Shown here: piece after piece, positions 10,281-48,221 of the stretch
Position numbering within the stretch: position 1 is the first letter of the stretch
How the letters are laid out: each line of letters begins with the position of its first letter
Assembly (NCBI RefSeq): GCF_001685395.1
Contig: NZ_CP014167.1
Coordinates: 1,245,501 to 1,309,500, forward strand
From: Paenibacillus yonginensis
GTDB lineage: Bacteria > Bacillota > Bacilli > Paenibacillales > Paenibacillaceae
Direction: 5' to 3'
DNA: 64,000 nucleotides
Notes under the pieces: model-generated
The model's input: only the letters and a program-made list of their open reading frames with translations
What the model was told of the DNA's origin: nothing
Databases searched by the model: none
Position numbers and translations under genes: made by a program

Positions 10281-10315
10281 AAAACCGTCCGGACCTCTCC
10301 GGACGGTTATTTTTA
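10281..10315 (+). terminator. GNAT terminator, target site of the group II intron
   Basis: AACCGTCCGGA pairs perfectly with TCCGGACGGTT around a 4-nt loop, followed by ATTTTTA. An A-run before the stem makes it bidirectional, so it probably once also served the convergent MFS gene. The intron starts at the very next base (10316), which is how group IIC introns choose sites. Confidence 0.92.
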
Positions 10316-12217
10316 GTGTGACACGCATGGCGATTAACTAGGTGGTGAAAGTCCACTGTGGGGGTTTGTAGTTACCAACCACTAGCCAAGAGCAAGGGTG
10401 TCCACCGCGAGGTGGAATCCAAAGGAAGCTGGAGGCAAACTTCCGGCCCAAGGAACACGAACATCATCAGGCATAGGATACGGGATGAGTCTGCTAAACA
10501 AGACGAAGTCCAATTAACTACACGGACGTACCAATGTAAATGATGTGGGTATATGGAAGGAAAGTGAATCGTCTTACCGTGGGAGGTCTCATGGACGTGA
10601 GGAGATGCACTTCGAATCACGGTTGAAACAAGATTTATCATGAGAAGTCAGCAGACGCCATAGTACCGCGAACAGTCGACGGTTCGAGGGAAGGGCTGAA
10701 CCTTAGGAGGTGAAGTCAATGAAAGTTACCGAAACAGGAGCCAAGGGCAGCCAACTTCTAACGGAAGACTCTTTGCAAAAGAATAGTGCGGAACACGAAG
10801 GATATGCGGGAGTGCACAGTCCTGCGAGGATAACCGAAACCGACGACACCAACGCAACCGAGTCGAAGGACCGGTTGCTTGAGAAAATCGTTAGCAGGGA
10901 CAACTTGAACGAAGCATTCAAGAGAGTCAAAGCGAACAAGGGATCGCACGGAATCGACGGGATGGGAGTAGATGAACTTCTACAATATCTCAGAGACAAC
11001 GGCGAGACCATCAAGCAACTGATCTTGGGCGGCAAGTACCGCCCGAATCCCGTTCGAAGGGTAGAGATTCCCAAAGAGAACGGAAAGAAGAGAAACCTTG
11101 GCATCCCAACAGTGGTTGACCGAGTCATCCAGCAGGCAATCGCCCAAGTGCTTACGCCAATTTATGAGAGGCAGTTTTCAGACAACAGCTACGGATTCCG
11201 ACCCAAACGGAGCGCACACCACGCGATGAAACGAAGCCAACAATACGTGCAAGAGGGATATCGTTACGTGGTGGATATGGACTTGGAGAAATACTTTGAC
11301 ACCGTCAACCAAAGCAAGCTTATCGAGGTGCTTTCAAGAACGATCAAAGACGGACGAGTGATCTCGCTCATCCATAAGTATCTCCGGGCGGGAGTCGTCG
11401 TGAAGCATAAGTTTGAGGACACGGAAATCGGCGTACCGCAGGGAGGGAACCTAAGTCCGATTCTCAGCAATATCATGCTGAATGAATTGGACAAGGAACT
11501 GGAAGCAAGAGGACATCGATTCGTGCGATACGCAGACGATATGCTCATATTCTGCCGGAGCAGGAGGAGTGCGGAGCGTACCCTGACGAAAATTCTCCCT
11601 TACATCGAGAAGAAGTTGTTTCTCAAGGTAAACCGGGAGAAAACGATTGTGGACGATGCGACAAAAGTTAAATTTCTTGGCTTCTCATTCTACCAGAGCA
11701 AAGGGGAAACGCGGGTCAGAATCCATCCCAAATCCGTATCCAAGATGAAAGCTAAAGTGAAAGAGCTAACGTCGAGAAGCAACGGAATGGGCAACACCGA
11801 CCGGGCGCTGAAGCTTAGGCGTTACATCATGGGATGGGTAAATTATTTCAAGCTTGCTGACATGAAACAACTACTCCAAACCACTGATAAATGGATGAGA
11901 AGGCGTATCCGAATGGTCTTCTGGAAGCAATGGAAACGAGTGAGGACGAAACTCGAAAGGCTTATATCGCTCGGAATTCATGAACAGAAGGCGTGGGAAT
12001 ACGCAAACACAAGAAAGGGCTATTGGAGAATCTCCAATAGCCCAATCCTCTCGAAGTCCCTCGGTAACAATAGGCTGAAGAACCTCGGATTCCTTTTCTT
12101 TTCTGATTATTATCGACAAGTTACTGCGCATTCCTAATGGAACCGCCGTATACCGAACGGTACGTACGGTGGTGTGGGAGGTCGGCTGCCCAATTAATGG
12201 GTAGCCTCCTACCCGAT
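10316..12217 (+). mobile_element. Group II intron (class C-like), about 1.9 kb, encoding a maturase
   Basis: The 5' end GTGTG matches the group II consensus (GUGYG) and begins right after the GNAT terminator tail. The 3' part contains a domain V-like hairpin at about 12138-12180 (GGAACCGCCG, a GNRA-like CGAA turn, CGTACGGTGG) and a domain VI hairpin after it. The proposed 3' end ...CCCGAT fits the AY rule. The encoded protein lies between domains I-III (10316-10718) and V, as expected for domain IV. Insertion behind an intrinsic terminator, the 1.9-kb size and the lack of an endonuclease domain in the protein point to class C. The exact 3' boundary (12217) is inferred, not proven. Confidence 0.85.
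10719..12137 (+). CDS. ltrA: Group II intron reverse transcriptase/maturase (LtrA-like)
   Basis: A 472-residue intron-encoded protein. The reverse transcriptase domain (about 60-330) includes the catalytic Tyr-Ala-Asp-Asp motif and the Gly-Val-Pro-Gln-Gly-Gly motif of RT4. The maturase X domain follows, with the Gly-Trp-Val-Asn-Tyr-Phe pattern. The C-terminal Trp-Lys-Gln-Trp-Lys...Lys-Gly-Tyr-Trp-Arg-Ile-Ser segment is typical of class C proteins. No HNH endonuclease with its Cys pairs is present, so mobility should rely on retrotransposition into single-stranded or terminator sites. TAGGAGG lies 8 bp before the ATG at 10719; an in-frame GTG at 10710 overlaps that site and is rejected. The frame is intact, so the element may still be active. 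Confidence 0.95.
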   Translation: MKVTETGAKGSQLLTEDSLQKNSAEHEGYAGVHSPARITETDDTNATESKDRLLEKIVSRDNLNEAFKRVKANKGSHGIDGMGVDELLQYLRDNGETIKQLILGGKYRPNPVRRVEIPKENGKKRNLGIPTVVDRVIQQAIAQVLTPIYERQFSDNSYGFRPKRSAHHAMKRSQQYVQEGYRYVVDMDLEKYFDTVNQSKLIEVLSRTIKDGRVISLIHKYLRAGVVVKHKFEDTEIGVPQGGNLSPILSNIMLNELDKELEARGHRFVRYADDMLIFCRSRRSAERTLTKILPYIEKKLFLKVNREKTIVDDATKVKFLGFSFYQSKGETRVRIHPKSVSKMKAKVKELTSRSNGMGNTDRALKLRRYIMGWVNYFKLADMKQLLQTTDKWMRRRIRMVFWKQWKRVRTKLERLISLGIHEQKAWEYANTRKGYWRISNSPILSKSLGNNRLKNLGFLFFSDYYRQVTAHS

Positions 12218-13462
12218 TCTTAAGCGGCAGAATTTGCCGATTCCGCTTTTTTTTCCTCTCCTGTACAGCATAATAAGTAGAGCGGAGCCGGCAAAAGCGG
12301 CGCTTACCAGCCAAAGCGGGATACGCGGATCAATCGTATAAGCCCAGCCGCCAATAATACCGGCAGGAGAGGTGAGCAGCAAAATAAACACAGAAAGCAT
12401 GGAGAACATCTTGGCCCTCTTCTCATCGTCAATCGCATTCTGGACAGCCGCTTCCAGATAAGGCGAACTGATCATTAGCCCGACTGCCGACAGCACGGTG
12501 CTGATGCCCACCCAAACCAGGCTGCCGGTCGGATAAACCACCAGCATGACATTGGACGCAACGGACAACAAGAAGCCGGCAGTCATGGCCCGCGTCTCCG
12601 CTGAGGATGAAATCTTCGGCATGATCAGCCATAAGGCCAGCAGCATGACGGCCGAAGAAACGGCCGGGAACAGAGATATAATGCCACTTCCAATATGTAG
12701 ATAGTCTGCAAGATACAGGGATAGGTAAGTCGTTTTAAGTGTAGCCTGGAAATTAAACAGGATATAAACCCCGAAGATCAGCAGCAGGCTTCTGCTGCGC
12801 AGAATTTCCCCAATCGATCCCCAGTAATCCATCAGGATTTCTTTGAATCCCAGCTCCCGGGTTTCCTTCATCTTCCGAAGACCGATTTCTGTCTCCCGGG
12901 TCGTCAAATGACGGCCGATAAATTGAATTGTCATCAGGATGCAGGCCAGCACGTACATGATCCGTACGCCGCTCACCAATCCGTAATGGGCGACAAGAAG
13001 TCCGCCCAGCGGAGCAAACAATCCTCCGATTACACTAATAATCTGCAGCAGCGTAAATACATAAGTCCGTTCATGTGGTTTGGAATCCTCGACGATCAGG
13101 CAGTAGAAAGCCGTATTCGGGACACGCTGGAATCCATTCAGCAGTGCAGCAGTGACAAACAGCCAGAAGTTATGCGAGACGGCCCATAGCAGCGTGGCCA
13201 ATGTCCAGCTGAGCAGGTCGAAATACAGAATTGCCCCTTTTCTGCCCATCCGGTCCGTCAAATAACCGCTGATCAGAGAGGAGAAAACCTGCACGATCAA
13301 ACCGATCGTCGTAATTAAACCGATGGCGGTCTCCGTTAATCCCAACTCGTACATATACAAAGTAGCGTAGGTGGTAAACATGCTGTAAGGAATCAGAAAA
13401 AGCGGCTCGAAGGCCAGACTTCCCCGGCTGTTCCCTTTAAGCCGGGTAAAAATAGGTCTCAT
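12209..13462 (-). CDS. MFS transporter
   Basis: A 417-residue major facilitator with about 12 predicted membrane segments. The loop 2-3 motif is Gly-Tyr-Leu-Thr-Asp-Arg-Met-Gly-Arg-Lys, the family A-motif. Substrate is unknown; the closest general type is a Bacillales drug- or sugar-efflux-like MFS. The reading frame ends at 12209, which is inside the group II intron. If the intron ends at 12217, the original gene stopped with TAA immediately after Leu-Arg, and the intron has swapped the natural stop for Ile-Gly-TAG. The change is only two residues, so function is probably kept. A promoter-like pair lies upstream at 13521-13549. Confidence 0.88.
   Translation of the reverse strand: MRPIFTRLKGNSRGSLAFEPLFLIPYSMFTTYATLYMYELGLTETAIGLITTIGLIVQVFSSLISGYLTDRMGRKGAILYFDLLSWTLATLLWAVSHNFWLFVTAALLNGFQRVPNTAFYCLIVEDSKPHERTYVFTLLQIISVIGGLFAPLGGLLVAHYGLVSGVRIMYVLACILMTIQFIGRHLTTRETEIGLRKMKETRELGFKEILMDYWGSIGEILRSRSLLLIFGVYILFNFQATLKTTYLSLYLADYLHIGSGIISLFPAVSSAVMLLALWLIMPKISSSAETRAMTAGFLLSVASNVMLVVYPTGSLVWVGISTVLSAVGLMISSPYLEAAVQNAIDDEKRAKMFSMLSVFILLLTSPAGIIGGWAYTIDPRIPLWLVSAAFAGSALLIMLYRRGKKSGIGKFCRLRIG
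12222..12254 (+). terminator. Plus-strand intrinsic terminator downstream of the intron, inside the MFS 3' end
   Basis: AAGCGG pairs with CCGCTT, with a nested CGGCA/TGCCG hairpin as an alternative, and a run of eight T follows. It would stop plus-strand transcripts leaving the intron. The same bases code for the C-terminus of the convergent MFS protein. Confidence 0.55.
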
Positions 13463-24629: not shown

Positions 24630-24675
24630 ATGGAAGAGAGACTTATAAGAGAAAAAGGAGGAGCCTGTCCGTCCC

Positions 24676-26707
24676 ATGGAAATATTTTTTAGCGTTCTGA
24701 TCTTGCTGGGGCTGATCGGCTTATCGAATCTGTTAAACCGGTTTGCGCCATTTGTGCCGGTGCCTTTGTTTCAGATTGCGCTCGGCGCGCTGATCAGCAT
24801 TATCCCGCCTCATCTTCATCTTCCGCTTAATCCGGAATTGTTTTTTGTGCTGTTTATCGCCCCGCTGCTTTATAATGACGGCAAAAAAAACGCCGCGCGA
24901 CGAGCTGTGGAGCCTGCGTGCGCCTATACTGCTCATGGCTTTGGGCCTCGTCTTCGCGACCGTGCTGGTGGCGGGTTATTTCATCCATTTCCGCATTCCG
25001 TCCATTCCGCTGGCGGCGGCCTTTGCGCTGGCGGCGATCCTGTCGCCAACCGATGCAGTGGCGGTCAGCTCGATTGCGAGCAGAATCAAGCTGCCTAGAA
25101 GAATCATGCGCCTGCTGGAGGGCGAATCGCTGATGAACGACGCCTCCGGTCTAGTCGCCTTTAAGTTTGCAGTAGCGGCCGCAGTGACCGGCTTGTTTTC
25201 GCTGGCTGATGCTACGCTGAGCTTCTTCCTGATCGCGCTCGGCGGTCTGCTTGTAGGCGCAGTGCTGGCCCTGCTGATCTTCCGTCTTCAGGGCTGGATC
25301 CGCAGCCTGGGCATGGAGGATGTCACGCTGCTGATGCTGGTGCAGATCCTCACCCCGTTCCTGATTTACCTGATCGCCGAAGAGATCGGGGTTTCCGGGA
25401 TTCTTGCCGTTGTGGCGGCAGGTCTGGTTCATTCGATAGATACGGACCGGATCAGCTCGCCCCATTACCGGCTCCGCATTACATCGGACAGTACGTGGTC
25501 GGTTATTTTATTTCTGCTGAACGGCCTTGTATTTGTCATTCTCGGGCTGCAGCTGCCCGATGTGGGCAGGGTTATTTTCAAGGATCCGTCCTTTAGCAAT
25601 GGGCAGGTTCTCGGTTATATCGTTGAAATCTCTCTGCTGCTGCTTGTCCTGCGTTTTGTGTGGGTATACCTGTTCTGGCGGGTGGGCAACGGCGATAACC
25701 AGGAGCATAACGAGCTGGATAAAAACCGCTTAAAGACTTCGTTGTTAACCTCTCTGTCAGGAGTCCGGGGGACGGTTACTTTGGCCGGTGCCTTTTCCAT
25801 TCCTTTTATGCTGGGCAACGGGAGTTCGTTCCCGGAACGAAACCTGATTATCTTCATTGCGGCCGGTGTGATTCTGTTCTCGCTGCTGACAGCCAGCATC
25901 GTGCTGCCGCTGCTCGCCCGCGATCCGAATGTGGAGGAGGATCAGGAGGAGAAGCAGCAGGAGCTGACGGCCCGGGTTGCACTGCTGCAGAAAGCCATTG
26001 CCGTGACCAAAGAAGAAATGACCACGGACAACCAAAGGGCAGCTATGGAGCTCATTTCCTATTACAATCAGGAAATTCGTGAAATGCAGACCCTGGTTGC
26101 GGATGATATTGATCAATTCCGGGAGACGGAATGCGAGATCCGGCTGCTTGGGGTAAGGGCTGAAAGAGCCGAAATTGAATCGCTGCTTGAGCGAGGAGAG
26201 ATTGAGGAGCAGGTGGCTTCGAAATTTTTTGATATGATTGATGAAATGGAGTATATGCTGACGACCCGCAGGAAGTTCGGCATGAGATTTTCTTTCTTCC
26301 GGCTCCTCTTCCGCCGGCTGTTCAACAAGCTGTTCCGTTCTTCAGCTGTAACGCGGGAGAAAGCGAAGCTGGGAGAATATAAAGAGGCCAAACTCAAAAC
26401 CTGCCAGGCGGCGATCCAAGCCATTTCCAATAATCTGTGCGTTGAGAACCGGACGATCTCCACAGGGGTCATTTCCCGCTATAAGGAACTGATATACCGG
26501 CTCAGTTCTTCCAGGGAGGCTGGTGAATCGCCGGAATTGAAAGCCTATAAGAAAGAGCTGCGAATGAAGGCTGTGCAAGCGGAACGGGATGAGGTGCAGA
26601 ACATGTATGAGAAGGGCAGCATCTCCCGTTCCGTAGCCAACAAGCTCCGCCAGTTCGTGAATATGGTGGAGGCGTCTTTGCTCGATGAAGAGCCGGAGCA
26701 CGGGTAA
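24676..26707 (+). pseudogene. CPA1-type Na+/H+ antiporter, frameshifted at an A8 tract
   Basis: The reading frame from ATG 24676 (site AAAGGAGGAG) codes for the first antiporter helices up to Leu-Tyr-Asn-Asp-Gly-Lys-Lys. It then leaves the family sequence at a run of eight A (24883-24890). The correct continuation (Thr-Pro-Arg-Asp-Glu-Leu-Trp...) lies in the other frame and stays open to 26707. With seven A the two parts join into one protein of about 676 residues: about 12 membrane segments including Pro-Thr-Asp-Ala-Val-Ala and Asn-Asp-Ala-Ser-Gly motifs typical of NhaP/YjcE exchangers, then a long cytoplasmic helical tail. It may be a mutation, a homopolymer sequencing error, or a slippage-controlled gene. 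Confidence 0.85.
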
Positions 26708-26733: not shown

Positions 26734-26772
26734 AACAACCGCAGGGCATGACCCTGCGGTTGTTTCTTTTAA
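26734..26772 (+). terminator. Bidirectional terminator between the antiporter and the MFS exporter
   Basis: AACAACCGCAGGG pairs with CCCTGCGGTTGTT around a 5-nt loop and is followed by TCTTTT on the plus strand. The minus strand also has a T-rich tail, so it can serve both convergent genes. Confidence 0.88.
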
Positions 26773-33463: not shown

Positions 33464-34822
33464 GTGGATAGTGACAGGCTTGGGTTAAAATTAGTTATGG
33501 TCGTTCTGCTGATCGCTTTGTCGGCGTTTTTTGTAGCCGTGGAATTTGCCGCGGTGCGGATGCGCCAAAGCCGGGTGGATCAATTAATAGCAGAAGGCAA
33601 AAGAAATGCTTTATCGGTTAAGAAGGTGTTAAATCATCTGGACGGCTATTTATCGGCCTGCCAGCTCGGCATCACCATTACCTCTCTCGGACTTGGTTTT
33701 CTCGGCGAGTCCACGGTAGAGAAGCTGCTGCATCCTTTGTTTCACGCGATGCACCTGCCGGATTCGGTAAGCAGCGTTATTTCGTTGATTTTGGCTTTTG
33801 CCCTTATTACGTATTTCCATGTCGTTGTTGGCGAGCTTGCTCCAAAGACAGTAGCCATTCGCAAAACGGAAACCATCATGCTGCTTACGGCAGGTGCGAT
33901 TATCTGGTTTAACCGTATCATGTTCCCGTTTATCTGGCTGCTCAACGGTTCGGCTAACCAGCTCGTCAAGCTGTTTGGAATCAAACCGGCTTCCGAGCAC
34001 GAAGAAGCTCACTCGGAGGAGGAGCTGCAAATTATTTTAAGTGAAAGTTATGAGAGCGGGAAAATTAATCAAGCCGAATACGGGTATGTCAGCCGGATAT
34101 TTGCTTTCGATAATATGCTGGCCAAAGAAATCATGGTGCCCCGTACGGATATGATTTGTTTATATACAAACTTGAGCCGTGAAGAGAATTTAAGCATTAT
34201 CAAGGAGCAGCAGTATACCCGGTTTCCGGTGGTCAAGGACAACAAAGACCATGTGATCGGGATCATCAATACGAAGCAGTTTTTCCTTAAATATGACGAT
34301 CAGCCGGATTTGGACGTTTCGACCCTGATTCAGCCTGTATTGTCCGTTGCTGAAACGATACCGATTAACGACCTGCTGAAGAAGATGCAGAAGGAGCGAA
34401 CCCATATTGCGATTCTGATTGATGAATATGGCGGAACTTCGGGGATGGTAACGATTGAGGACATCCTGGAAGAGATCGTCGGTGAGATCCGTGACGAGTT
34501 TGACGGTGAGGAAGAAGAAACCGTCCGTATTCTGGATCATGATCATATTATCGTGGACGGCAAACTTTCCTTGAACCAGCTTTCGCGTTATCTGCCGATT
34601 GAGCTGGGTGATGAGGAGTGGGACACGGTCGGCGGCTGGCTGTATGCCCATCACGAAATGCTGGAGGAAGGCGAACAGTTCCAGCATGATGGTTATCTCT
34701 TTACTGTTCTGGAGCGCGAGAATACCCGCTATCTCCGGATTGAAATCCAGGCAAAACGGATAGAAGAAGAGGAAGAGGAAGCTGAAGCCGATTCGAGCAG
34801 GAATAGCAGGAATAACGAGTAG
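33464..34822 (+). CDS. CNNM/CorC-type membrane protein (hemolysin family), second copy
   Basis: A 452-residue paralogue of the protein at 13704-15032: N-terminal DUF21 with about four membrane segments, the Met-Val-Pro-Arg-Thr-Asp hinge, a CBS pair (about 205-325) and a CorC_HlyC domain. The C-terminal tail is very rich in Glu (residues about 430-452), unlike the first copy. The start is GTG at 33464 with GAAGGAGA 10 bp upstream. The two copies share the architecture but differ in leader and tail, suggesting different regulation. Cation homeostasis is the family role; the ion is unknown. Confidence 0.92.
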   Translation: MDSDRLGLKLVMVVLLIALSAFFVAVEFAAVRMRQSRVDQLIAEGKRNALSVKKVLNHLDGYLSACQLGITITSLGLGFLGESTVEKLLHPLFHAMHLPDSVSSVISLILAFALITYFHVVVGELAPKTVAIRKTETIMLLTAGAIIWFNRIMFPFIWLLNGSANQLVKLFGIKPASEHEEAHSEEELQIILSESYESGKINQAEYGYVSRIFAFDNMLAKEIMVPRTDMICLYTNLSREENLSIIKEQQYTRFPVVKDNKDHVIGIINTKQFFLKYDDQPDLDVSTLIQPVLSVAETIPINDLLKKMQKERTHIAILIDEYGGTSGMVTIEDILEEIVGEIRDEFDGEEEETVRILDHDHIIVDGKLSLNQLSRYLPIELGDEEWDTVGGWLYAHHEMLEEGEQFQHDGYLFTVLERENTRYLRIEIQAKRIEEEEEEAEADSSRNSRNNE

Positions 34823-34855
34823 GACTTTTACTTTTGAACTTCATATAAAACTTGG

Positions 34856-34907
34856 AAAAGCGGCATGCCCGGTTGGTAAGATTCACGGGTGTGCCGCTTT
34901 TCTGTGT
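34856..34907 (+). terminator. Bidirectional terminator between the CNNM and ABC permease genes
   Basis: AAAAGCGGCA pairs with TGCCGCTTTT, with inner CCCG/CGGG pairing, between convergent genes. T-rich tails exist on both strands. Confidence 0.85.
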
Positions 34908-34951
34908 TCACTGTCGTTTTATAGCCCCGTTATAAGCGCTGATATACCGGG

Positions 34952-35782
34952 TCAGCCTTTAACGGCGCCGGCCACAACGCCTTTGACAATGTATTTTTGC
35001 AGGAAAATAAACACGATGATTGAAGGCAGCACCGCCATCACCATAGCTGTCATGGCATACTGCCAATCGGACGTGTATTGTCCGACAAAGGTGTAGGCGG
35101 CAAGCGTAAGTGTTTTCGTATCCGGCGAGCCGTTAACCATGAGGAGCGGGAGCAGGAAGTCGTTCCAGATCCACATCACGTCGATGATGATTACCGTCGT
35201 CGTCACGGATTTCAGCAGCGGGAAAATAACCGAAAAGAACAGCCGGAACCCCGAGGCCCCGTCAATTACGGCGCTTTCGTCGATCTCCTTCGGAATGCCT
35301 TTCACAAACCCGTGATAGATGAACATAGCGAGCGGAGCGCCGAACCCCCAATACATAAGCCCAAGGCCCCAGGTGCTTTCGGATAGGTGCAGGTTTTTGG
35401 CCATTTGCAGTACGGTCAGCATGATCGACTGAAACGGAATGAGCATCGGCATGATGCACAGGAAATAAATCAGCGCACTCCATTTGGTCTTGGTCCGGGC
35501 AAGCTTATAGGCCCCGATCGAAGAAACAAAAATGATCCCCGCAAGGCCAAGAATTGTGATGACTGCATTGTTCAGGAACAGACGAGGGTAATTGATATAT
35601 TTCCAAACGTAAGAATAGTTTTCGAACGCCAGATTTTTCGGCAGCGCGATCACGTCGGTCATCAGCTCGGAGAAGCTTTTCAGCGAATTAATGAGCGTAA
35701 GAAACAGCGGGTACAGAAACAGCAGCGACAAAACGACCATGATGATTTCGAGCGCAATACGCCCCGTCTTTCTTTTCGCCAT
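34952..35782 (-). CDS. Sugar ABC transporter permease (MalG/LacG-like)
   Basis: A 276-residue permease with six predicted membrane segments and the EAA loop near Ile-Asp-Glu-Ser-Ala-Val-Ile-Asp-Gly-Ala-Ser-Gly, where the ATPase docks. Typical carbohydrate uptake transporter-1 (CUT1) inner subunit. It overlaps the end of the other permease gene, so the two are coupled. The operon has only the two permeases; the likely binding protein is at 40518 on the other strand beyond a two-component system. No ATPase gene is present, as often seen when a shared MsmX-type ATPase serves several systems. Confidence 0.92.
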   Translation of the reverse strand: MAKRKTGRIALEIIMVVLSLLFLYPLFLTLINSLKSFSELMTDVIALPKNLAFENYSYVWKYINYPRLFLNNAVITILGLAGIIFVSSIGAYKLARTKTKWSALIYFLCIMPMLIPFQSIMLTVLQMAKNLHLSESTWGLGLMYWGFGAPLAMFIYHGFVKGIPKEIDESAVIDGASGFRLFFSVIFPLLKSVTTTVIIIDVMWIWNDFLLPLLMVNGSPDTKTLTLAAYTFVGQYTSDWQYAMTAMVMAVLPSIIVFIFLQKYIVKGVVAGAVKG

Positions 35783-36669
35783 CAGGCTTCAACCTCCCTG
35801 CGTTTAAAGATCGTCAGCTGCAGAATCGTAATGATCAGCACGGCCACAAACAGAATAAGCGCTTTCGCTGTCCCGTAACCGTAAAGGTTATTCTGGAACG
35901 TATCCCGGTAGATGTCGTAAGCCACGCTGTAGGTGGTTCCGCCGGGTCCGCCGCCGGTCAAGGACAAGATGACGTCAAACACCTTAATCGAGTTGGTCAG
36001 GGCCATAAATACCGAGATCGTGACGGAAGGGGCAAGCAGGGGCAGCGTAATGTTGAAAAATCTCCGGACAGGACCCGCCCCGTCCACCGTTGCGGCCTCC
36101 TTGAGATCATCCGGCACGCTCTGCAGGCCGGCGATATAAATCACCATATAAAAGCCGATCGACTGCCAGATCGAAACGGCCAGGATCGAAACAAAAGCCA
36201 GTCCAGGCTCCCCAAGCCAGCTGAGGCCGAATATTTTCCAGCCCGTGCTGTCTCCAAGCGATTCAAAGCCCTGCATAAAGATAAACTTCCAGATGAAACC
36301 GACGATCACCAGGCTGAGGATATAGGGGATAAAAAAGGCTGCCCGCAGCCAGGCCGAGGTCTTCAGCTTCATGTCGAGCACTACGGCGAGCAGGATCGCC
36401 AGCACATTGATAATTACAATGTACAGAACCGCGTATTTCAAGGTAAACCAGGCGGCGCTGCTGAAGTTGGAATCCCCCATAAAAATATCTTTGAAATTAT
36501 CCAGTCCGATAAATTTCGGATGTTTGGAAATGCCGTTCCATTTCGTCAGGGAATAACGGATCGTCATAACGAAAGGAACATAGAAGACTACTGCGACACA
36601 GATCAGAACCGGCAAAGTGAACAGGCCGAATTCCAGCTTCTCCGACCATTTTCTGCCCAGGTTGCGCAT
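35782..36669 (-). CDS. Sugar ABC transporter permease (MalF/LacF-like)
   Basis: A 295-residue permease with six predicted membrane segments and the EAA loop around Leu-Lys-Glu-Ala-Ala-Thr-Val-Asp-Gly-Ala-Gly. First gene of the two-permease operon; AAAGAGGTG precedes the ATG. Given the neighbouring GH36 alpha-galactosidase, raffinose/melibiose-like sugars are the most likely substrate. It diverges from the histidine kinase, so the 174-bp gap 36670-36843 should contain both promoters and probably the AraC-type regulator's binding site. Confidence 0.92.
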   Translation of the reverse strand: MRNLGRKWSEKLEFGLFTLPVLICVAVVFYVPFVMTIRYSLTKWNGISKHPKFIGLDNFKDIFMGDSNFSSAAWFTLKYAVLYIVIINVLAILLAVVLDMKLKTSAWLRAAFFIPYILSLVIVGFIWKFIFMQGFESLGDSTGWKIFGLSWLGEPGLAFVSILAVSIWQSIGFYMVIYIAGLQSVPDDLKEAATVDGAGPVRRFFNITLPLLAPSVTISVFMALTNSIKVFDVILSLTGGGPGGTTYSVAYDIYRDTFQNNLYGYGTAKALILFVAVLIITILQLTIFKRREVEA

Positions 36670-36843
36670 GTTGACACCTCTTTCTCCAGACTTCGGCGAC
36701 AGGCGGCTCCGGAGGGAGACCGCTCTGTTGACTCTTGCTTTTCATTTACAATGATTATAGATTAGGGGTATTAAGCGACCAATGGATTTAAGAAATCAGT
36801 TAGGGGTAAAAAGGTGAACTGAGGGCAGAGGGTGTGACAAAAG

Positions 36844-38733
36844 ATGAAAGCGTTTAACAATCCGCTGGTAAAAGGAATTGTGGAGGTAAGGGAGCGAATA
36901 AGGCGAAGATTAGTCCATAAGCTGGTGCTGGTATTTACCTTGATTATCGTGCTGCTCGTCGGGTCTTTGTCCGTCATCTCCTATCAGATGATTCAGCGCG
37001 AATCAGTGGGCAGCAGCGTTGCCAGCACGTCGAACAATTTGCTGCTGGTCAACCGGAATTTGGAGGCGTTTCTATCCGGAATAGAAGAGCTGTCGCTGCC
37101 GAAAATTCAGTACGACCAGCTGATCAACGCCGTGCTGACCGAACAAACGGAGTATTCCTCCAGACTGTATTTGGAGCAGTATTTAAAAAATCTGTTCTTC
37201 GCCCGCAAGGATCTGGAGGCGATTAATATGTACATCCCGTCTGACCGCAAATATTATTCGATCACCCGGGAGCAGTATGATACTAGAGTCCGAGCGGTGT
37301 ACGATGATAAGGTTCCGGACCAGGCCTGGTACCGACGGGCTATGGACAGCAGGGAAAACCGGCTGTTTCAATCGTTTGTGGCTGGTGGAAGCGATGGCGG
37401 TACAGGGGCAGAAGAAAGGGAAAAGGAAAACTATGGGAGCGCATACGATTCTTTTGCCAAAACCAGCTTTATGGCGTATCACCGCGTGCTGCGTTCTATT
37501 TCGACCCGCCAGCCTCAGGTTGTTTTTTCGTTCTATTTCAACACGAAAGCCGCTGATGAAATCATGAAGGATATTCCTTTCGCCGAAGGGGAACATTTGC
37601 TGCTGCTAGGACCGGACGGCACGCCTTTTTATACCGACAATTCCGCCTATTACCGCGGGCTGAGACAAGGAAACCTGCTGGAACGCATTCCAGGCACAGG
37701 CTCAGGTCAGCTGACCTGGCGTGAGGCGGACAGCAAATATCTGGTTGTCTACAACGTAGGGGAGCAGTACGGCTGGAAGCTGGTTAAACCTATCCCTTAC
37801 AGCATGATTTACGAAACGGCGAACCAAACAAGGAATCTGAGTTTGGGCATTGGTCTGATTTTATTTATGATCGGAGTTGTCCTTGTTGTAATCATTACCA
37901 ATGCGATTACAAGACCGCTGAAGAAGCTCGCGTTTCAGATGAGGAGATTTAGCGAAGGCTCCTTTGACGCGGAGACAGAGGTCAAGGGCCGGGATGAGGT
38001 GGCTTATTTGAGCCGGCATTTCAATATGATGGTCCGCAGGACCAATGATCTGATTAACGAACGGTACAAAATGAAGCTGACAGAGAAAAACGCTATTCTT
38101 AAAGCTCTTGAGGCGGAAATCAATCCGCATTTCCTGTACAATGCGCTGCAGGCAATTTCCACAAAAGCATTGAAAAACGGCATGTTTGATATCTCCGATA
38201 TGGTGGAGGCGCTGGCGCTGACGCTGCGCTACTGTATCAGCGGCCGCGACATCGTGACGGCACGTGAGGAGCTGGAGCATGTGGAACGTTATTTAACGCT
38301 GCAGAAAGCACGTTTCGGCAGCAGGCTTGAGGTGGAGGTCCGCTGGGCGGAAGAACTGCTGGAACTAAACCTTCCAAAGCTGTCCTTGCAGTCTCTTGTC
38401 GAAAATTCAATTAAACACGGCTTGGAGCGTGTCCGGGATCATGTCCGGATTACAATTGAAGCATCGGCGAACGAAGAGGAGGCCCTAATTTCGGTCACGG
38501 ACAACGGCCCGGGAATGACCGGAGACAGACTGAACCAGGTGCTGCAGTCTCTGGAGACCGACTGGGAAGAACGCGATGGGGGGAGCATTGGCTTAAAAAA
38601 TTTGAACACAAGGCTTAAACTCCTGTTTGGTGAAGCTTCGGAGCTTGCGATTGAATCCGGCGTTGGGCAAACCAAATTGACGATGCGGATACCGGAGGGG
38701 GGCAGCGGATATGTACAAAGTGCTGATTATTGA
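36844..38733 (+). CDS. YesM-type sensor histidine kinase of the alpha-galactoside locus
   Basis: A 629-residue kinase with TM1 at about residues 26-48, a large extracytoplasmic sensor (about 50-330, dCache-like), TM2 (about 332-355), HAMP, a His_kinase box with Glu-Ile-Asn-Pro-His-Phe-Leu-Tyr-Asn (phospho-acceptor near His429) and a C-terminal HATPase (Asn-Ser-Ile-Lys-His-Gly and Asp-Asn-Gly-Pro-Gly boxes). Its 3' end overlaps the response regulator by 23 bp. Such pairs control sugar ABC importers in Paenibacillus and relatives; here the likely cue is an alpha-galactoside, possibly through contact with the binding protein. Confidence 0.93.
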   Translation: MKAFNNPLVKGIVEVRERIRRRLVHKLVLVFTLIIVLLVGSLSVISYQMIQRESVGSSVASTSNNLLLVNRNLEAFLSGIEELSLPKIQYDQLINAVLTEQTEYSSRLYLEQYLKNLFFARKDLEAINMYIPSDRKYYSITREQYDTRVRAVYDDKVPDQAWYRRAMDSRENRLFQSFVAGGSDGGTGAEEREKENYGSAYDSFAKTSFMAYHRVLRSISTRQPQVVFSFYFNTKAADEIMKDIPFAEGEHLLLLGPDGTPFYTDNSAYYRGLRQGNLLERIPGTGSGQLTWREADSKYLVVYNVGEQYGWKLVKPIPYSMIYETANQTRNLSLGIGLILFMIGVVLVVIITNAITRPLKKLAFQMRRFSEGSFDAETEVKGRDEVAYLSRHFNMMVRRTNDLINERYKMKLTEKNAILKALEAEINPHFLYNALQAISTKALKNGMFDISDMVEALALTLRYCISGRDIVTAREELEHVERYLTLQKARFGSRLEVEVRWAEELLELNLPKLSLQSLVENSIKHGLERVRDHVRITIEASANEEEALISVTDNGPGMTGDRLNQVLQSLETDWEERDGGSIGLKNLNTRLKLLFGEASELAIESGVGQTKLTMRIPEGGSGYVQSADY

Positions 38734-40399
38734 TGACGAAGAGCCGTTAAGAGAGGCCATCCGAATCTTGGGGGAATGGGACTCCTTAGGCGTGGATACG
38801 ATCCTGGAGGCGGAAGACGGGGAAAGCGGTCTGCTTTTGCTGCGGCAGCAGCAGGTAGATCTGGTGATGGTAGATATGAAGATGCCAGGCATAAGCGGTC
38901 CCGAGCTGCTGCAAATTCTGGAACAGGATTTCCCGGATTTGCCGAGCATAGTGATCAGCGGGTATAACGATTTTGAATTTACCCGGCAGGCGATTAAGTC
39001 CAAGTCGGTAGACTATCTGCTCAAACCGGTAAACCGGGGAGAGCTGAACCAGGCGATGCACAAAGCAGTCGAGCAGCTGGAGGCCAGACGCAGAAGCGAG
39101 AACGACAACATTAACCGGGGGATCAGGCTGAATATGTCCCTGCCCAAATTGAAGGAGAATATTTACCTGTCTTTGCTGGATAGGACCTTTCATCCGGCAG
39201 GCAAGCAGGATCTGCTGGCTATGATCGGCGCGGGGAAGGCGGACAGTATTTATGGGGTCGGCGTTATCCGCATCCTAAATCTGGATGAAACGGCGAACAG
39301 CCGCTTTCACGGTGAAATCGGGCTGCTGCATTTCGCTGTTTCCAATATGGTGAACAATGCTTCCGGACCCGGGCTGCAAAGCTTCTGCTTTGCCAATCCG
39401 CGGCAGATGCGGGAAATGATCACCGTGTTTAATATGGAAAAGGGGACCGAAGCGGACCTGGCATTTCAATCAGAGCTGCTGCTTAAGCAGATCCACGCCG
39501 CGCTGCGGGATCTGCTTGGAATCCGGTCCGTTATGGGGGTGGGCCGCCCCTGCAGGGACATGTTCCATATGGCCGATGCCTTCGAAGCTGCAAAGGCCGC
39601 CGTGCTGCAGATGAATTTCCAGCAGGCGGCCGGAGCGGCGAATGCCATTTTTACATCTGCACCTGTACCTACGTCTGCACCTGGAACTTCATCAGGATCG
39701 CCGGGGAGAACCGAGCAAACGCCCGAGGTGCCGTCTCTCATCAGCAGGCTGCCTCTGCTTCGCAGCGCGCTGGAGGCCGGAAACCTGAATCAGGCGAAGA
39801 CGGTGCTGGCCGATTTTCTGCGTGCCCTTGGGGAGCGGAAAAGCTGCCGTCTGGGTGACGCCGACCGTGCTGTCCAGGACTTTCATCTCCTGCTTCGGGA
39901 TACGGCGCTTTCGCTGGGCGTTTCGCCTGACAAGCTTCCCCGAGAGGGAGAAGAGAAGTTCAGCTTTGGCGGATTCAGCCGGGATTACTCGAATTTTACG
40001 GAGTTTGGGGAATTGCTGGAGCGGATGCTGGAGTATTATGTTGGCGTTATCCGCGGTCAGGCTGGCGTCCAGGGGCGTTTTGACGCTGAGGATATCAAGG
40101 CTTATATCGATACCCATTACTTCGAAGATTTCAAAATTTCGTTGTTTACCGAAAAATATTATTTAAGCCGCGAATACCTCATGAAGCGTTTCAAGCAGCA
40201 GTTCGGCTGCGGCATTCATGAATATACGCAGAAGGTGAGAATGGAGAAAGCGAAGGAAATGCTGGGCGATCCTTCTTTAAAGATCCAGGAAATCTCGGAA
40301 ATGCTCGGCTATCGTGATAAGAACTACTTCAGCAAGGCTTTCCGCAACTATTACCGGATGTCCCCGACAGAGTTCCGGCTGTTCAGCTCTTCAAAATGA
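38711..40399 (+). CDS. YesN-type response regulator, receiver + AraC HTH
   Basis: A 562-residue regulator. The receiver (about 1-125) has Asp55 in Met-Val-Asp-Met-Lys-Met-Pro and Lys in Leu-Leu-Lys-Pro-Val. A long middle region (about 130-440), typical of this family, carries a Ser/Thr/Pro/Gly-rich linker near 315-340. The C-terminal AraC domain (about 460-560) ends Met-Ser-Pro-Thr-Glu-Phe-Arg. It should activate the divergent permease operon and the downstream binding-protein and galactosidase genes. ATG at 38711 with GGAGGGGGG just upstream; translation is coupled to the kinase by the overlap. Confidence 0.93.
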   Translation: MYKVLIIDDEEPLREAIRILGEWDSLGVDTILEAEDGESGLLLLRQQQVDLVMVDMKMPGISGPELLQILEQDFPDLPSIVISGYNDFEFTRQAIKSKSVDYLLKPVNRGELNQAMHKAVEQLEARRRSENDNINRGIRLNMSLPKLKENIYLSLLDRTFHPAGKQDLLAMIGAGKADSIYGVGVIRILNLDETANSRFHGEIGLLHFAVSNMVNNASGPGLQSFCFANPRQMREMITVFNMEKGTEADLAFQSELLLKQIHAALRDLLGIRSVMGVGRPCRDMFHMADAFEAAKAAVLQMNFQQAAGAANAIFTSAPVPTSAPGTSSGSPGRTEQTPEVPSLISRLPLLRSALEAGNLNQAKTVLADFLRALGERKSCRLGDADRAVQDFHLLLRDTALSLGVSPDKLPREGEEKFSFGGFSRDYSNFTEFGELLERMLEYYVGVIRGQAGVQGRFDAEDIKAYIDTHYFEDFKISLFTEKYYLSREYLMKRFKQQFGCGIHEYTQKVRMEKAKEMLGDPSLKIQEISEMLGYRDKNYFSKAFRNYYRMSPTEFRLFSSSK

Positions 40400-40517
40400 T
40401 GCGCCACTTTTTTACCCTCAACTCATCACATAACTGCATTTTGTAACTCAGCAGGCTTTAATACAATAATCTACGAAATGCAAATAAATCCAAAGTCATT
40501 GAAACGGGGGCGTATTC

Positions 40518-41840
40518 ATGTTTAAGAGATTGACGGCGGTAACGGCCAGTCTTGTGCTCATGACGGGGCTGCTTGCGGCCTGCGGAGGCGGTTCCAATAA
40601 TGTTGGCAGCAGCAGCGCAGGGAACGCATCGAATAACGGAGGAGCCGCGGATTCTTCCAAACCGGTTACGATCAATATGTTTACGGCATCACCAGAGTAT
40701 ACGGATGCTTTTAACGCGTATATTGAAGAGTACAAGAAAGTGAAGCCCAACGTAACGATCAACCTCGAAATTATGCAATCCGATTATAATACCGTTTTGA
40801 AATCCAGAATAGCCGCAGGCAGTACGCCGGATGTGTTCCAGACGACGGCTGGCGGGGACATCGACACTTTTGCCGACTACAGCGCGGATTTAACGAATGA
40901 ACCTCTGGCGCAGGCGATGACCGACGCGGTCAGAAGCAACATGACCTCCTCCGACGGAAAAGTGCTTGGCCTTCCTGTCAAAGGCAACTTGTTTGCCCTG
41001 ATCTATAACAAAAAGCTGCTGGCTGATGCGGGCATAACTTCCGTTCCAAAAACGACGGCCGAGCTGGAGGAAGCCATTACCAAACTGGAGGTCAAAGGCA
41101 TTACGCCATTTGCAAACGCATACAAGGAATGGTGGGTGTGGAAGCATATCTTCCAGCACTTCGTAGATGCGGCAGCGGAAGATGCAGGCACCAGCGCCAA
41201 GGATTTAGTCCAAAGCTTCATCGACGGTAAAACGACCTTTAAAGACCACCCTGTGCTGTACGACAACTTCTTTAACTTCATCGACCTGACCGTCAAACAC
41301 GGAACGGACAAACCGCTGGAGCGGGACAGCAATGCAGAGGTCAGCGATTTTGCGGCAGGCAAAGCGGCCTTCATGACGGGTAAAGGCGCATGGGACGAAG
41401 AAGCGATCAAGAAGATCAACCCCGACATCGAGATCGGTATTGCAGGATATCCGGTGAGCGATAAACCAGAGCAGTCCGTTATCATTACAGGCGCTGACCA
41501 GGCGCTGCGCATCAACAAGGATTCCAAGGTGGTTAAAGAAACAATCGAATTCTTCAACTGGCTCTATACTTCGGATTACGGTAAAAACTGGTTCTCCCAA
41601 GTTGCCAAGGTAATTCCACCTATTAAAGACGCTCCTTTGCCGGACCTGGATATGCCGAAGCAAATGGATGAGATCCTGAAGACGGAGAAATCCGGCGATT
41701 TGTCCATCAACTATTCACTCGATACGTTCCATCAGAAGTTCGGTGAAATCATGCAGGCCTACATTGGCGGGAACAAAACGAAAGACCAGGCTGTCGATGA
41801 AATTCAAAAAGCTTGGCAGCAGTTCGGCTCTGCCCAATAA
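40518..41840 (+). CDS. Sugar ABC transporter substrate-binding lipoprotein
   Basis: A 440-residue extracytoplasmic solute-binding protein of the CUT1 class. The signal peptide ends in the lipobox Leu-Leu-Ala-Ala-Cys (Cys22), followed by a Gly/Ser/Asn-rich linker to about residue 50 and a two-lobed binding domain. It should capture the sugar for the permeases encoded on the opposite strand at 34952-36669. GGGGGCG precedes the ATG. It is followed by a stem-loop without a T-run and then by the galactosidase, a layout that usually allows more binding protein than enzyme to be made. Confidence 0.92.
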   Translation: MFKRLTAVTASLVLMTGLLAACGGGSNNVGSSSAGNASNNGGAADSSKPVTINMFTASPEYTDAFNAYIEEYKKVKPNVTINLEIMQSDYNTVLKSRIAAGSTPDVFQTTAGGDIDTFADYSADLTNEPLAQAMTDAVRSNMTSSDGKVLGLPVKGNLFALIYNKKLLADAGITSVPKTTAELEEAITKLEVKGITPFANAYKEWWVWKHIFQHFVDAAAEDAGTSAKDLVQSFIDGKTTFKDHPVLYDNFFNFIDLTVKHGTDKPLERDSNAEVSDFAAGKAAFMTGKGAWDEEAIKKINPDIEIGIAGYPVSDKPEQSVIITGADQALRINKDSKVVKETIEFFNWLYTSDYGKNWFSQVAKVIPPIKDAPLPDLDMPKQMDEILKTEKSGDLSINYSLDTFHQKFGEIMQAYIGGNKTKDQAVDEIQKAWQQFGSAQ

Positions 41841-41869
41841 TTCTGCTCGATATTCCTATCCTTTCTCAC

Positions 41870-41901
41870 CTGACTCAGCACGGCTTGGCGTGCTGGGTCA
41901 G
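41870..41901 (+). other. Intercistronic stem-loop between binding protein and alpha-galactosidase genes
   Basis: CTGAC-T-CAGCACG pairs with CGTGCTG-G-GTCAG around a 6-nt loop, about 30 bp after the binding-protein stop. There is no T-run, so it is more likely a 3' mRNA stabiliser or partial attenuator than a full terminator. Confidence 0.7.
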
Positions 41902-41938
41902 TATGCTATTCAGATCAAAGAGAGGAGCTAGAACCCTT

Positions 41939-44155
41939 ATGCCAATCCATCAGGATATTCCATCTTTATCATCCCCAGGATTGTTATTCTTCAGCGAAAA
42001 CGGTCTTGCCCTGCAGCTGGAAATTACGGACAGCAAAGATGTCCGCCTGCTTCACTTTGGGCGTCTGCCCGCCGCTCCCGATACGTCCGCAGAGGACGAA
42101 GACCTGGCTCGGAGCAACGGGCAGCCTGCTGTCCATTCAGAACAGCTTCTATTATATGAACGACTATCGGATGTACAGAAGCCTTTCTGCAGGCTGCTGG
42201 AGCTTCAGCTTACCGGAGAGGACAGGGCCGAATACCACGGCCGGACCCACCGGGCATCCTATCCGGGGCTCCGGATGGAATATGCAAGCCACGCGGATTA
42301 CAGAAATAAGCAGGGCCGCAAGCTGGAGTTCGTGCTGCTCGATCCAGTTACGGAACTTAGAGCCACACAGCATTTTCAGTTTCTGGACGGTGTCAGCCAT
42401 GTCGTGCGCTGCTGGACGGAGCTTCAGAATGAAGGGAAAGACGCTGTCTCCGTGGAGTATATTTCGTCGTTTGCTTTCTCGGGGTTGGATCAGGAGGGTA
42501 CTGCGGCGCGAGACGATAAAATGTGCCTTACCTTGGCATACAACGGCTGGCAGAGCGAGCTCCAATGGCGGACCTATACCCTGCCCGAGCTGGGGATGCC
42601 GCAGATGACCGACCGCAGCTCCAAAAGGATAACAGGAAGCAATACGGGTTCCTGGTCTGCTGCCGAGCTGATTCCTATGGCCGTGCTGCAGAACACGGAC
42701 TCGCACACCGCCTACTTCTGGCAGATTGAACACAATGGCTCCTGGCACTGGGAGCTGTTCGAACAGGGCAACCTGCTGAGCCTGCTTGCAGGCGGACCAA
42801 ATGAACATGACAACCATTGGTGGAAAAAGCTTGAGCCCGGCGAAAGCTTCGCCAGCGTCGTGGTGGCAGCCGGCTCGGTCTGCGGCGGCTTCGAGGAAGC
42901 AGCACAGCGCTTGACGGAATACCGCCGCCGCATCCGCCGGCCTAACGAGGACAACCGGCTGCTGCCTGTTATTTTTAACGATTATATGAACTGCCTCTGG
43001 GGAAAGCCGACGACGGAACAGCTGCTGCCGCTGATCGACAGCGCCGCTGAAACGGGCTGCGAGGTATTTTGCATCGATGCCGGCTGGTATGCAGACGGGC
43101 TCTGGTGGGATGAAGTCGGCGAATGGCTGCCGTCCCGGGAGCGGTTCCCGGAAGGGCTGCCGTTTGTCCTGAAAAAGATCCGCGATAAGGGGATGGTGCC
43201 GGGACTGTGGCTGGAACTCGAAGTAATGGGCATTAACAGCCTGAAGCTTGCGGATACCGACGACAGCTGGTTTTTTATGCGTCATGGCAAACGGGTAAAA
43301 GACCGGAGCCGTTATCAGCTGGATTACCGGAATCCGGAGGTTCGCGCGTATGCAGACAGGGTTATCAGCAGGCTCGTAGAGGAATACGGAGTAGGATACA
43401 TTAAAATGGATTACAATATCAATTCGGGCGTTGGGACGGAGCTTGAGGCCGACAGCTTCGGCGATGGTCTGCTGGCGCATAACCGGGCATATCTGGCGTG
43501 GCTGGACGGCGTATTTGCCAAATATCCGGACCTGATTATCGAGAACTGCTCCAGCGGCGGCATGCGGATGGACTATGCGATGTTAAGCCGCCACAGCATC
43601 CAGTCTACCAGTGACCAGGAGAACTATTTAAATTATGCTCTCATTGCGGCCGGATGTCCGGGTGCGCTGACGCCGGAGCAGGCAGCTGTCTGGTCTTATC
43701 CGCTCCGGGAAGGGGATGATGAGGAAGTTATTTTTAACATGGTCAACGCCATGCTGCTCCGAATTCACCAAAGCGGCCATTTGGCCGAGCTCAGTCCGGA
43801 ACGCAGAACACTCGTCCAAGAAGGGATTGATTATTATAAAAAGATTCGTGGTTTCATACCCGAGGCTCTTCCTTTCTGGCCGCTCGGCCTGCCCGATCCC
43901 GGTGCGGCGTATGCCAGTCTGGGGTTAAAAGCTGGTGATCGTATGTTTATCGCAGTCTGGCAGCTGAAGGATACTGAAGAAGCCTGCCTCCTCTCGCTGC
44001 CGGGCTTGTACGGTCAAGATGTGCAGCTGTTCAAGTGCGCTTACCCAAAGCAAGCGGCCGATACGGTGTATACGTGGGATCATGAATGGAATCGCTTTAT
44101 GGTTCAACTGCCTGGTGCGGGCACAGCAAGATTGTTTGAATTCGTAACAGGCTGA
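41939..44155 (+). CDS. Alpha-galactosidase (GH36)
   Basis: A 738-residue cytoplasmic GH36 enzyme that removes alpha-1,6-linked galactose from melibiose, raffinose and related sugars. The N-terminal beta-supersandwich (about 1-330) leads to a TIM barrel with nucleophile Asp491 in Ile-Lys-Met-Asp-Tyr-Asn and acid/base Asp559 in Ser-Thr-Ser-Asp-Gln-Glu-Asn. The Glu-Asn-Cys-Ser-Ser-Gly-Gly motif lies between them. The ATG at 41939 is preferred because GAGAGGAG lies just upstream; in-frame codons before it overlap the binding-protein gene. It works on the sugar brought in by the adjacent ABC system. Confidence 0.94.
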   Translation: MPIHQDIPSLSSPGLLFFSENGLALQLEITDSKDVRLLHFGRLPAAPDTSAEDEDLARSNGQPAVHSEQLLLYERLSDVQKPFCRLLELQLTGEDRAEYHGRTHRASYPGLRMEYASHADYRNKQGRKLEFVLLDPVTELRATQHFQFLDGVSHVVRCWTELQNEGKDAVSVEYISSFAFSGLDQEGTAARDDKMCLTLAYNGWQSELQWRTYTLPELGMPQMTDRSSKRITGSNTGSWSAAELIPMAVLQNTDSHTAYFWQIEHNGSWHWELFEQGNLLSLLAGGPNEHDNHWWKKLEPGESFASVVVAAGSVCGGFEEAAQRLTEYRRRIRRPNEDNRLLPVIFNDYMNCLWGKPTTEQLLPLIDSAAETGCEVFCIDAGWYADGLWWDEVGEWLPSRERFPEGLPFVLKKIRDKGMVPGLWLELEVMGINSLKLADTDDSWFFMRHGKRVKDRSRYQLDYRNPEVRAYADRVISRLVEEYGVGYIKMDYNINSGVGTELEADSFGDGLLAHNRAYLAWLDGVFAKYPDLIIENCSSGGMRMDYAMLSRHSIQSTSDQENYLNYALIAAGCPGALTPEQAAVWSYPLREGDDEEVIFNMVNAMLLRIHQSGHLAELSPERRTLVQEGIDYYKKIRGFIPEALPFWPLGLPDPGAAYASLGLKAGDRMFIAVWQLKDTEEACLLSLPGLYGQDVQLFKCAYPKQAADTVYTWDHEWNRFMVQLPGAGTARLFEFVTG

Positions 44156-44174
44156 AGGGAAAAAATAAAGTTTA

Positions 44175-44226
44175 AAAACAAGCCTCGCTTCTTCTGGCAT
44201 GAAGTGGCCGGGGCTTGTTTTCTTTC
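44175..44226 (+). terminator. Intrinsic terminator after the alpha-galactosidase gene
   Basis: AAACAAGCC pairs with GGCTTGTTT across a 28-nt loop with inner pairing, followed by TCTTTC. It closes the alpha-galactoside operon. Confidence 0.8.
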
Positions 44227-44403
44227 ATGGATACCGCAAGACCGGCGAAAGAGGATAAAGAAGAGGGTATGGAGCGGTCAAGAATAGGGTAATGAATGAA
44301 TAGCATATACTAATTAAACCGGGCGGTACTGTCTTTGGGGCCGCTGTGTTAAATTGACAATGAAAAAGGCGACCCTAAAAGGATCACCTGAAATATACAC
44401 ATA

Positions 44404-48048: not shown

Positions 48049-48221
48049 AATTTTTCCCCTCACTGTCCGTTTGCTTATTCATTTCTATCATAATATGAAA
48101 AATTGACGAAAAGTTAACGTTTGTCAATCGTTTGCTGCCTTTTCTTCTGTTAGCATGTGCGTTGTGCGCTTCATCGTAGGGGCAATTGCTAGAACAGGCA
48201 TTGAAAGGAGAAAACGGACAA

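Follow-up and report, generated by a model that had tools for sequence, protein, structure and literature searches.

A gene split by a single base raises the question of whether it has died, is regulated, or has been misread. Such a gene lies in the window, by which I mean the whole 64,000-nt stretch of Paenibacillus yonginensis DNA that was analysed (G000:C1:1245501-1309500, G000 standing for this genome). Within it, the frame of a predicted Na+/H+ antiporter gene changes at a run of eight A's, at 24883-24890.

That one extra A in this run splits the antiporter frame, as the first-pass annotation claimed, is confirmed: the frame that begins with ATG ends at 25098, and the other, open since TTG 24845, continues to 26707 (Table 1). 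The first of these, ORF 24676-25098, encodes 140 amino acids. Its first 71 residues, which include two Lys codons within the A run, are in the antiporter frame, and the following 69 are out of it. The run begins 207 bases past the ATG, early in a gene about 2 kb long. By itself the 3' frame exceeds the cut-off for a-CPA1 Na+/H+ antiporters (TIGR00831, 327.4 bits against 279.6) as well as that for PF00999 (188.1 bits against 26.2). The 5' ORF by itself matches no Pfam family and reaches 36.7 bits at positions 22-70 of TIGR00831, under the cut-off; what it supplies is the N-terminus. Together the two frames are predicted to encode one a-CPA1 Na+/H+ antiporter, unlike the others in that the A run interrupts its frame.

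Table 1. Features of the split antiporter gene, in window coordinates
Feature	Position	Strand	Remarks
Likely ribosome-binding site, AAAGGAGGAG	24654..24663	+	12 bases 5' of the ATG; read from the sequence
5' coding part of the antiporter	24676..24882	+	69 codons ahead of the run, ATG included; aligns with the beginning of TIGR00831
A8 run, frame change	24883..24890	+	A7 in G020 and two other genus homologues
3' coding part of the antiporter	24890..26707	+	605 codons and stop; no further lesions
Out-of-frame continuation of the ATG ORF	24891..25098	+	ends at TAG 25096-25098
ATG in the 3' frame	25106..25108	+	seven bases past the stop of the ATG ORF; possible but poor restart
Terminator-like hairpin 3' of the gene	26734..26764	+	13 pairs, then T-rich

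The run itself is not above chance. The window contains four A8/T8 runs, against 6.84 expected, and 79 of 100 shuffles gave at least four; it is the split in the frame that stands out. As for signals, a scan for promoters found none by its rule (1.8 expected), and terminator-like hairpin sites in the stretch number eight, against 2.8 expected.

The closest relative, G020, has seven A's and reads through the same place. Its protein spans both frames of the window, with identities of 94% and 90%. The joining of the two frames into one gene stands. A search of the genus found a match (E <= 0.001) in 32 of 40 genomes, with 27 loci (L002-L028) that could be aligned across the site; two more, L029 and L030, are distant exchangers with no match there. 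All 27 continue in one frame across the site. None of them has A8, three have A7 (L002, which is G020, L009 and L010), and in the others the run is interrupted; where the run in G000 reads as eight, relatives encode Asp-Gly-Lys-Lys-Thr-Pro. The first-pass annotation had proposed a comparison of homologues; in all 27 the gene is intact across the site, and the run itself is not kept.

A wider search of the family, with the G020 protein as query, gave a match (E <= 1e-60) in 195 of 295 genomes. Among the matches listed, that of G000 starts at query residue 67 and the 149 others all start at residues 1-3. The two-frame arrangement was found at none of the 27 genus loci and in none of these 149 other matches. 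To judge from these alignments, relatives preserve neither the run nor the change of frame, and the case is a singleton frameshift in the GeneTack sense, confined to one genome with homologues intact at the site. It resembles the singletons described in the available part of the GeneTack survey (PMC3711429) in that one genome, one base, a homopolymer and intact homologues are involved, and no difference was found; frameshifted genes that do not cluster are put down there to indel mutation or sequencing error. The split is of an ordinary kind.

Some other antiporter loci deserve mention for themselves. The copy in G031, a genome 93% complete, is split elsewhere, at query residues 133-134 (L042, near 8130, minus strand), and not at an A run of the kind seen in G000. 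G020 also has pieces of another antiporter, less closely related (56-57% identity), whose frames overlap at G020:C1:791745-792354. Upstream of the antiporter gene of G020, between it and an iron-permease gene, lies about 1.8 kb that is absent in G000 (L034-L037).

How long has the frame been broken? A three-branch codon model (G000, G020, and G021 as outgroup) was fitted to the 5' and 3' parts of the gene separately. For the 605 codons of the 3' part, dN/dS is 0.043 on the G000 lineage, 0.074 on that of G020 and 0.058 on the outgroup branch, and one ratio for all branches fits equally well (2 delta lnL 1.24). Setting the G000 lineage to 1 costs 15.2 lnL. The upper limit is near 0.074 (at 1.92 lnL, interpolated), from which I infer that at most some 3-6% of the G000 branch is left for neutral drift. 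Most of the power comes from the membrane part (dN/dS 0.025, with 1 worse by 14.2 lnL). The tail of 258 codons is by itself weakly informative (0.081, with 1 worse by only 2.2 lnL), and the 69 codons of the 5' part (0.040, with 1 worse by 1.96 lnL) are too few to exclude 1. Neighbouring genes gave values of 0.015 to 0.163 on the G000 branch, in the 22 of 27 control genes fitted; outside the 22 are three genes that lack an orthologue in both genomes, one unfitted gene, and the antiporter, fitted separately. Because the 3' part evolves like its neighbours and a value of 1 is rejected, the lesion is very young or else not in the DNA, and the antiporter gene was working until very recently, or still is.

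It might be argued that the split frame is the relic of an antiporter lost long ago. Three other PF00999 loci in the G000 genome could replace the antiporter, and truly decayed genes are present in the window. An old pseudogene is scarcely credible nonetheless, with no second lesion in 605 codons and with the low ratio and upper limit just given for the G000 branch. The suggestion in the first-pass annotation that the gene is not dead is borne out in this sense, that it does not behave as a long-dead pseudogene.

The decayed genes lie further along the window. A homologue of a 1317-residue G020 gene, which I take to combine RCC1-like repeats with an SLH-type C-terminus, occupies 48180-50922 (+), broken by an in-frame stop at 49302 and an 8-base deletion near 50030; it has also suffered an internal deletion of about 0.9 kb. 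At 45853-48078 (-) an 887-residue G020 ORF, presumably a large regulator, is found in several pieces, with deletions of 4 bases, 1 base and 215 bases. The stretches 34751-44278 and 10315-12224 have no match in 80 kb of G020, and much of the former matches G021; both were probably lost or moved in G020.

The antiporter gene has company. A G000 sample of 1.264 Mb was compared with 1.28 Mb of G020, taking 963 G020 genes in G000 and 975 G000 genes in G020. From 38 candidate rows in G000, those were kept, by hand and after viewing, in which the junction lay inside the gene and there was one lesion. This left eleven +1 and two -1 clean frameshifts. The eleven, a set chosen by hand, affect the a-CPA1 Na+/H+ antiporter (A8 vs A7), a ComM-like Mg-chelatase (T7 vs T6), a GNAT acetyltransferase (T8 vs T7), a sodium:neurotransmitter-type symporter (T7 vs T6), a lipoyl-ligase-family protein (A6 vs A5), a solute-binding protein (A7 vs A6), an epimerase (G4 vs G3), a fliJ-like gene (A7 vs an interrupted run), a short-chain dehydrogenase, a LUD-domain protein and a 442-residue protein with no Pfam match. 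The two with -1 are a GerA protein and a NUDIX-like gene whose second part is weak. Names are from Pfam matches, apart from the two genes that I take to be ComM-like and FliJ-like. The ComM-like row was flagged as having multiple lesions, from a variable stretch, and its run difference is known from smaller samples. Dropped as doubtful in G000 were rows 692259, 662975 and 817774 (+1), 765788 (-1) and 626312 (-2); other rows were dropped that lay upstream of the likely start, were large deletions, had their lesion in G020, were decayed genes with several lesions, or fell in an operon with in-frame stops. The reverse comparison, of 32 rows read in the same way, kept three lesions in G020 (-1, +2 and -4), none of them +1; here 1694286 (-1) is doubtful, as is 1718518, which is +1 in G020 or -1 in G000. 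The antiporter frameshift belongs to a background of such lesions in G000.

One-base coding indels number 5 in 71.4 kb at an identity of at least 98%, 8 in 102.0 kb at 95-98% and 17 in 226.5 kb at 90-95%. Substitutions per kb in the same three bins are 11, 35 and 78. In the top identity bins, the G000 copy is the open one in two of five indels, and the symporter site was masked as non-coding. Below 90% the count is 328 in 623.4 kb, to which alignment noise contributes. Between 90 and 100% identity, then, indels per kb remain flat as substitutions rise sevenfold, as expected of errors or of short-lived mutations. Two further features of the sample may be recorded. A7 and T7 runs together number 313 in the 1.264 Mb of G000 and 248 in the 1.28 Mb of G020, and blocks at least 99.5% identical between the two genomes (13.5 kb of the sample, e.g. 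G000 1552000-1560000) lie amid sequence mostly below 95%, reflecting either recent exchange or unequal divergence.

I propose that the antiporter split is, very probably, a non-programmed one-base change in the length of the A run, in a gene otherwise intact and selectively maintained. Two origins would account for it. By the first, to which I give slightly less than an even chance, slipped-strand replication would have added one A, taking A7 to A8 in the sequenced clone. Translation from the ATG would then leave the antiporter frame past residue 71 and stop at 25098, and the clone, if A8 is real, would make only a truncated product. Of the twelve hydrophobic segments counted in G020 that product retains three, and it should be inactive. 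By the second, which I rank close behind the first as a serious possibility, the DNA has an in-frame run, and the consensus reads one A too many.

The case for error begins with the bias of G000 lesions towards +1. Published rates of run switching favour loss: in the part of PMC2831843 available, swrA is put at about 1e-4 for loss (9 to 8) and 1e-5 for gain (8 to 9), and flhA at 3e-4 (T8 to T7) and 7e-6 (T7 to T8). For this reason the bias counts against mutation and for error. Long-read assemblies tend to break genes at runs, though it is deletions, not insertions, that an excerpt of PMC12007338 ties to homopolymers. Against error is the quality of the assembly, a single contig of 4,985,901 bases with a completeness of 99.98. 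Systematic over-calling of runs in G000 is not seen between genes, where A/T runs of at least 5 are longer in G000 11 times and in G020 14 times, a comparison of little power (about one error expected). The corresponding counts in coding sequence are 9 for G000 and 5 for G020, several of the checked sites being upstream of a start or outside a gene. No mutator was found, mutS and mutL, the two repair genes looked at, both being full open frames in G000, and this too counts against mutation.

The case for mutation rests on other lesions in G000 that no run-length error would explain, the two multiply broken genes of the window among them. A second copy of trpS (G000:C1:1574227-1575221; L175, L176) is split by a short insertion that is not a homopolymer, and the stretch 5' of it resembles what I take to be a T-box leader. 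Were this the only trpS, a broken essential gene might be offered as proof of error, but a full-length trpS at 3197763-3198731 rules that out. In a germinant-receptor operon (G000:C1:1378589-1382478), two genes contain in-frame stops and a third changes frame, relative to G020. Lesions not of the run-length type would point to real recent loss in G000, and finding them in the same sample shifts the balance of the two origins slightly towards mutation, their sum staying the same.

The first-pass annotation suggested that the gene might be regulated, as a phase-variable gene or one tuned by slippage. As a switch, the run would flip between A7 (on) and A8 (off) by replication slippage, as in swrA of B. 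subtilis, and the sequenced clone would be one that was off. The run falls within the first tenth of the gene and one unit shifts the frame; any A7/A8 run is somewhat reversible, and in other bacteria runs this long switch at 1e-5 to 1e-3, according to the portion of PMC2831843 at hand. The swrA gene, flhA of C. coli and vaa of M. hominis (same portion) are alike in having 7-9 A/T near the 5' end, where one base sets the frame, but the antiporter run is not preserved in relatives. The off state at this site is seen in none of the 27 genus homologues and none of the 149 other family matches among those listed, and unrelated genes of G000 carry the same type of lesion. I consider a switch improbable. 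A literature search for an antiporter with a slipped run, or for homopolymer phase variation in Paenibacillus, found nothing relevant among the papers listed.

Rescue during expression is an equally long shot. Transcriptional slippage (-1 A or +2) or +1 slippage of the ribosome might yield some full-length antiporter, which would suit the normal constraint on the 3' part, and to judge from the sequence a +1 slip would leave the Lys tRNA able to pair with AAA again. Runs of more than seven A's are listed as known slippery sequences in an excerpt of PMC3711429, and A8 runs may slip in IS elements of Deinococcus and Nostoc; the usual threshold for slippage is nine, the length at which selection against slippery runs becomes visible in many genomes (excerpt of PMC1088944). 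Two frames also meet at an A run in Shigella mxiE, Thermus dnaX and IS elements (same excerpt), but the antiporter run is shorter than nine, its two-frame arrangement was found in one genome only, and rescue would need the less favoured direction. On that direction, less than 1% of transcription deletions in E. coli began in uninterrupted runs, while in Buchnera deletions in runs increase with run length (PMC5574713, in part). Insertions are at least twice as efficient as deletions on A7-A11, a stem-loop can favour deletions on T6-T9, and in one test the E. coli enzyme showed no detectable slippage on poly(A) (PMC6260861, in part). Tolerated frameshifts, moreover, should accumulate with divergence, whereas the one-base coding indels are flat, and this arrangement is again absent from all 27 genus homologues and the 149 other family matches among those listed. 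The same absence argues against a programmed frameshift. A -1 event in particular is rejected: A AAA AAC is in frame, but the -1 frame stops at 25133 and is not that of the antiporter. Nor does a restart at ATG 25106 help, for no good ribosome-binding site is seen by eye, and the ATG occurs in intact relatives too (L003, L006, L007 and L008; the motif in 13 of 27 loci). The restarted product would be without five of the twelve hydrophobic segments (G020 count) and without the SPTDAVAV segment, which presumably matters in an antiporter. With the run not kept, no relative examined frameshifted at the site, and the lesion of a kind with its background, the regulatory reading has several points against it and no positive evidence; phase variation and slippage rescue are conceivable, but nothing supports them.

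When one homopolymer base splits a gene under strong constraint, the cause is most often a very young mutation or an error in run length. If A8 is real here, the three other PF00999 loci could soften the loss of the antiporter. There is a slim chance that slippage at short runs, in replication or in transcription, gives this lineage a loose on/off or dosage control over its antiporter, the two run lengths coexisting in the population, and the same reading extends perhaps to other genes with +1 in an A/T run, such as the fliJ-like and comM-like genes. If the run truly varies in the population, a gene of ion homeostasis would join the known phase-variable genes of Gram-positive bacteria, and about ten further loci would become candidates.
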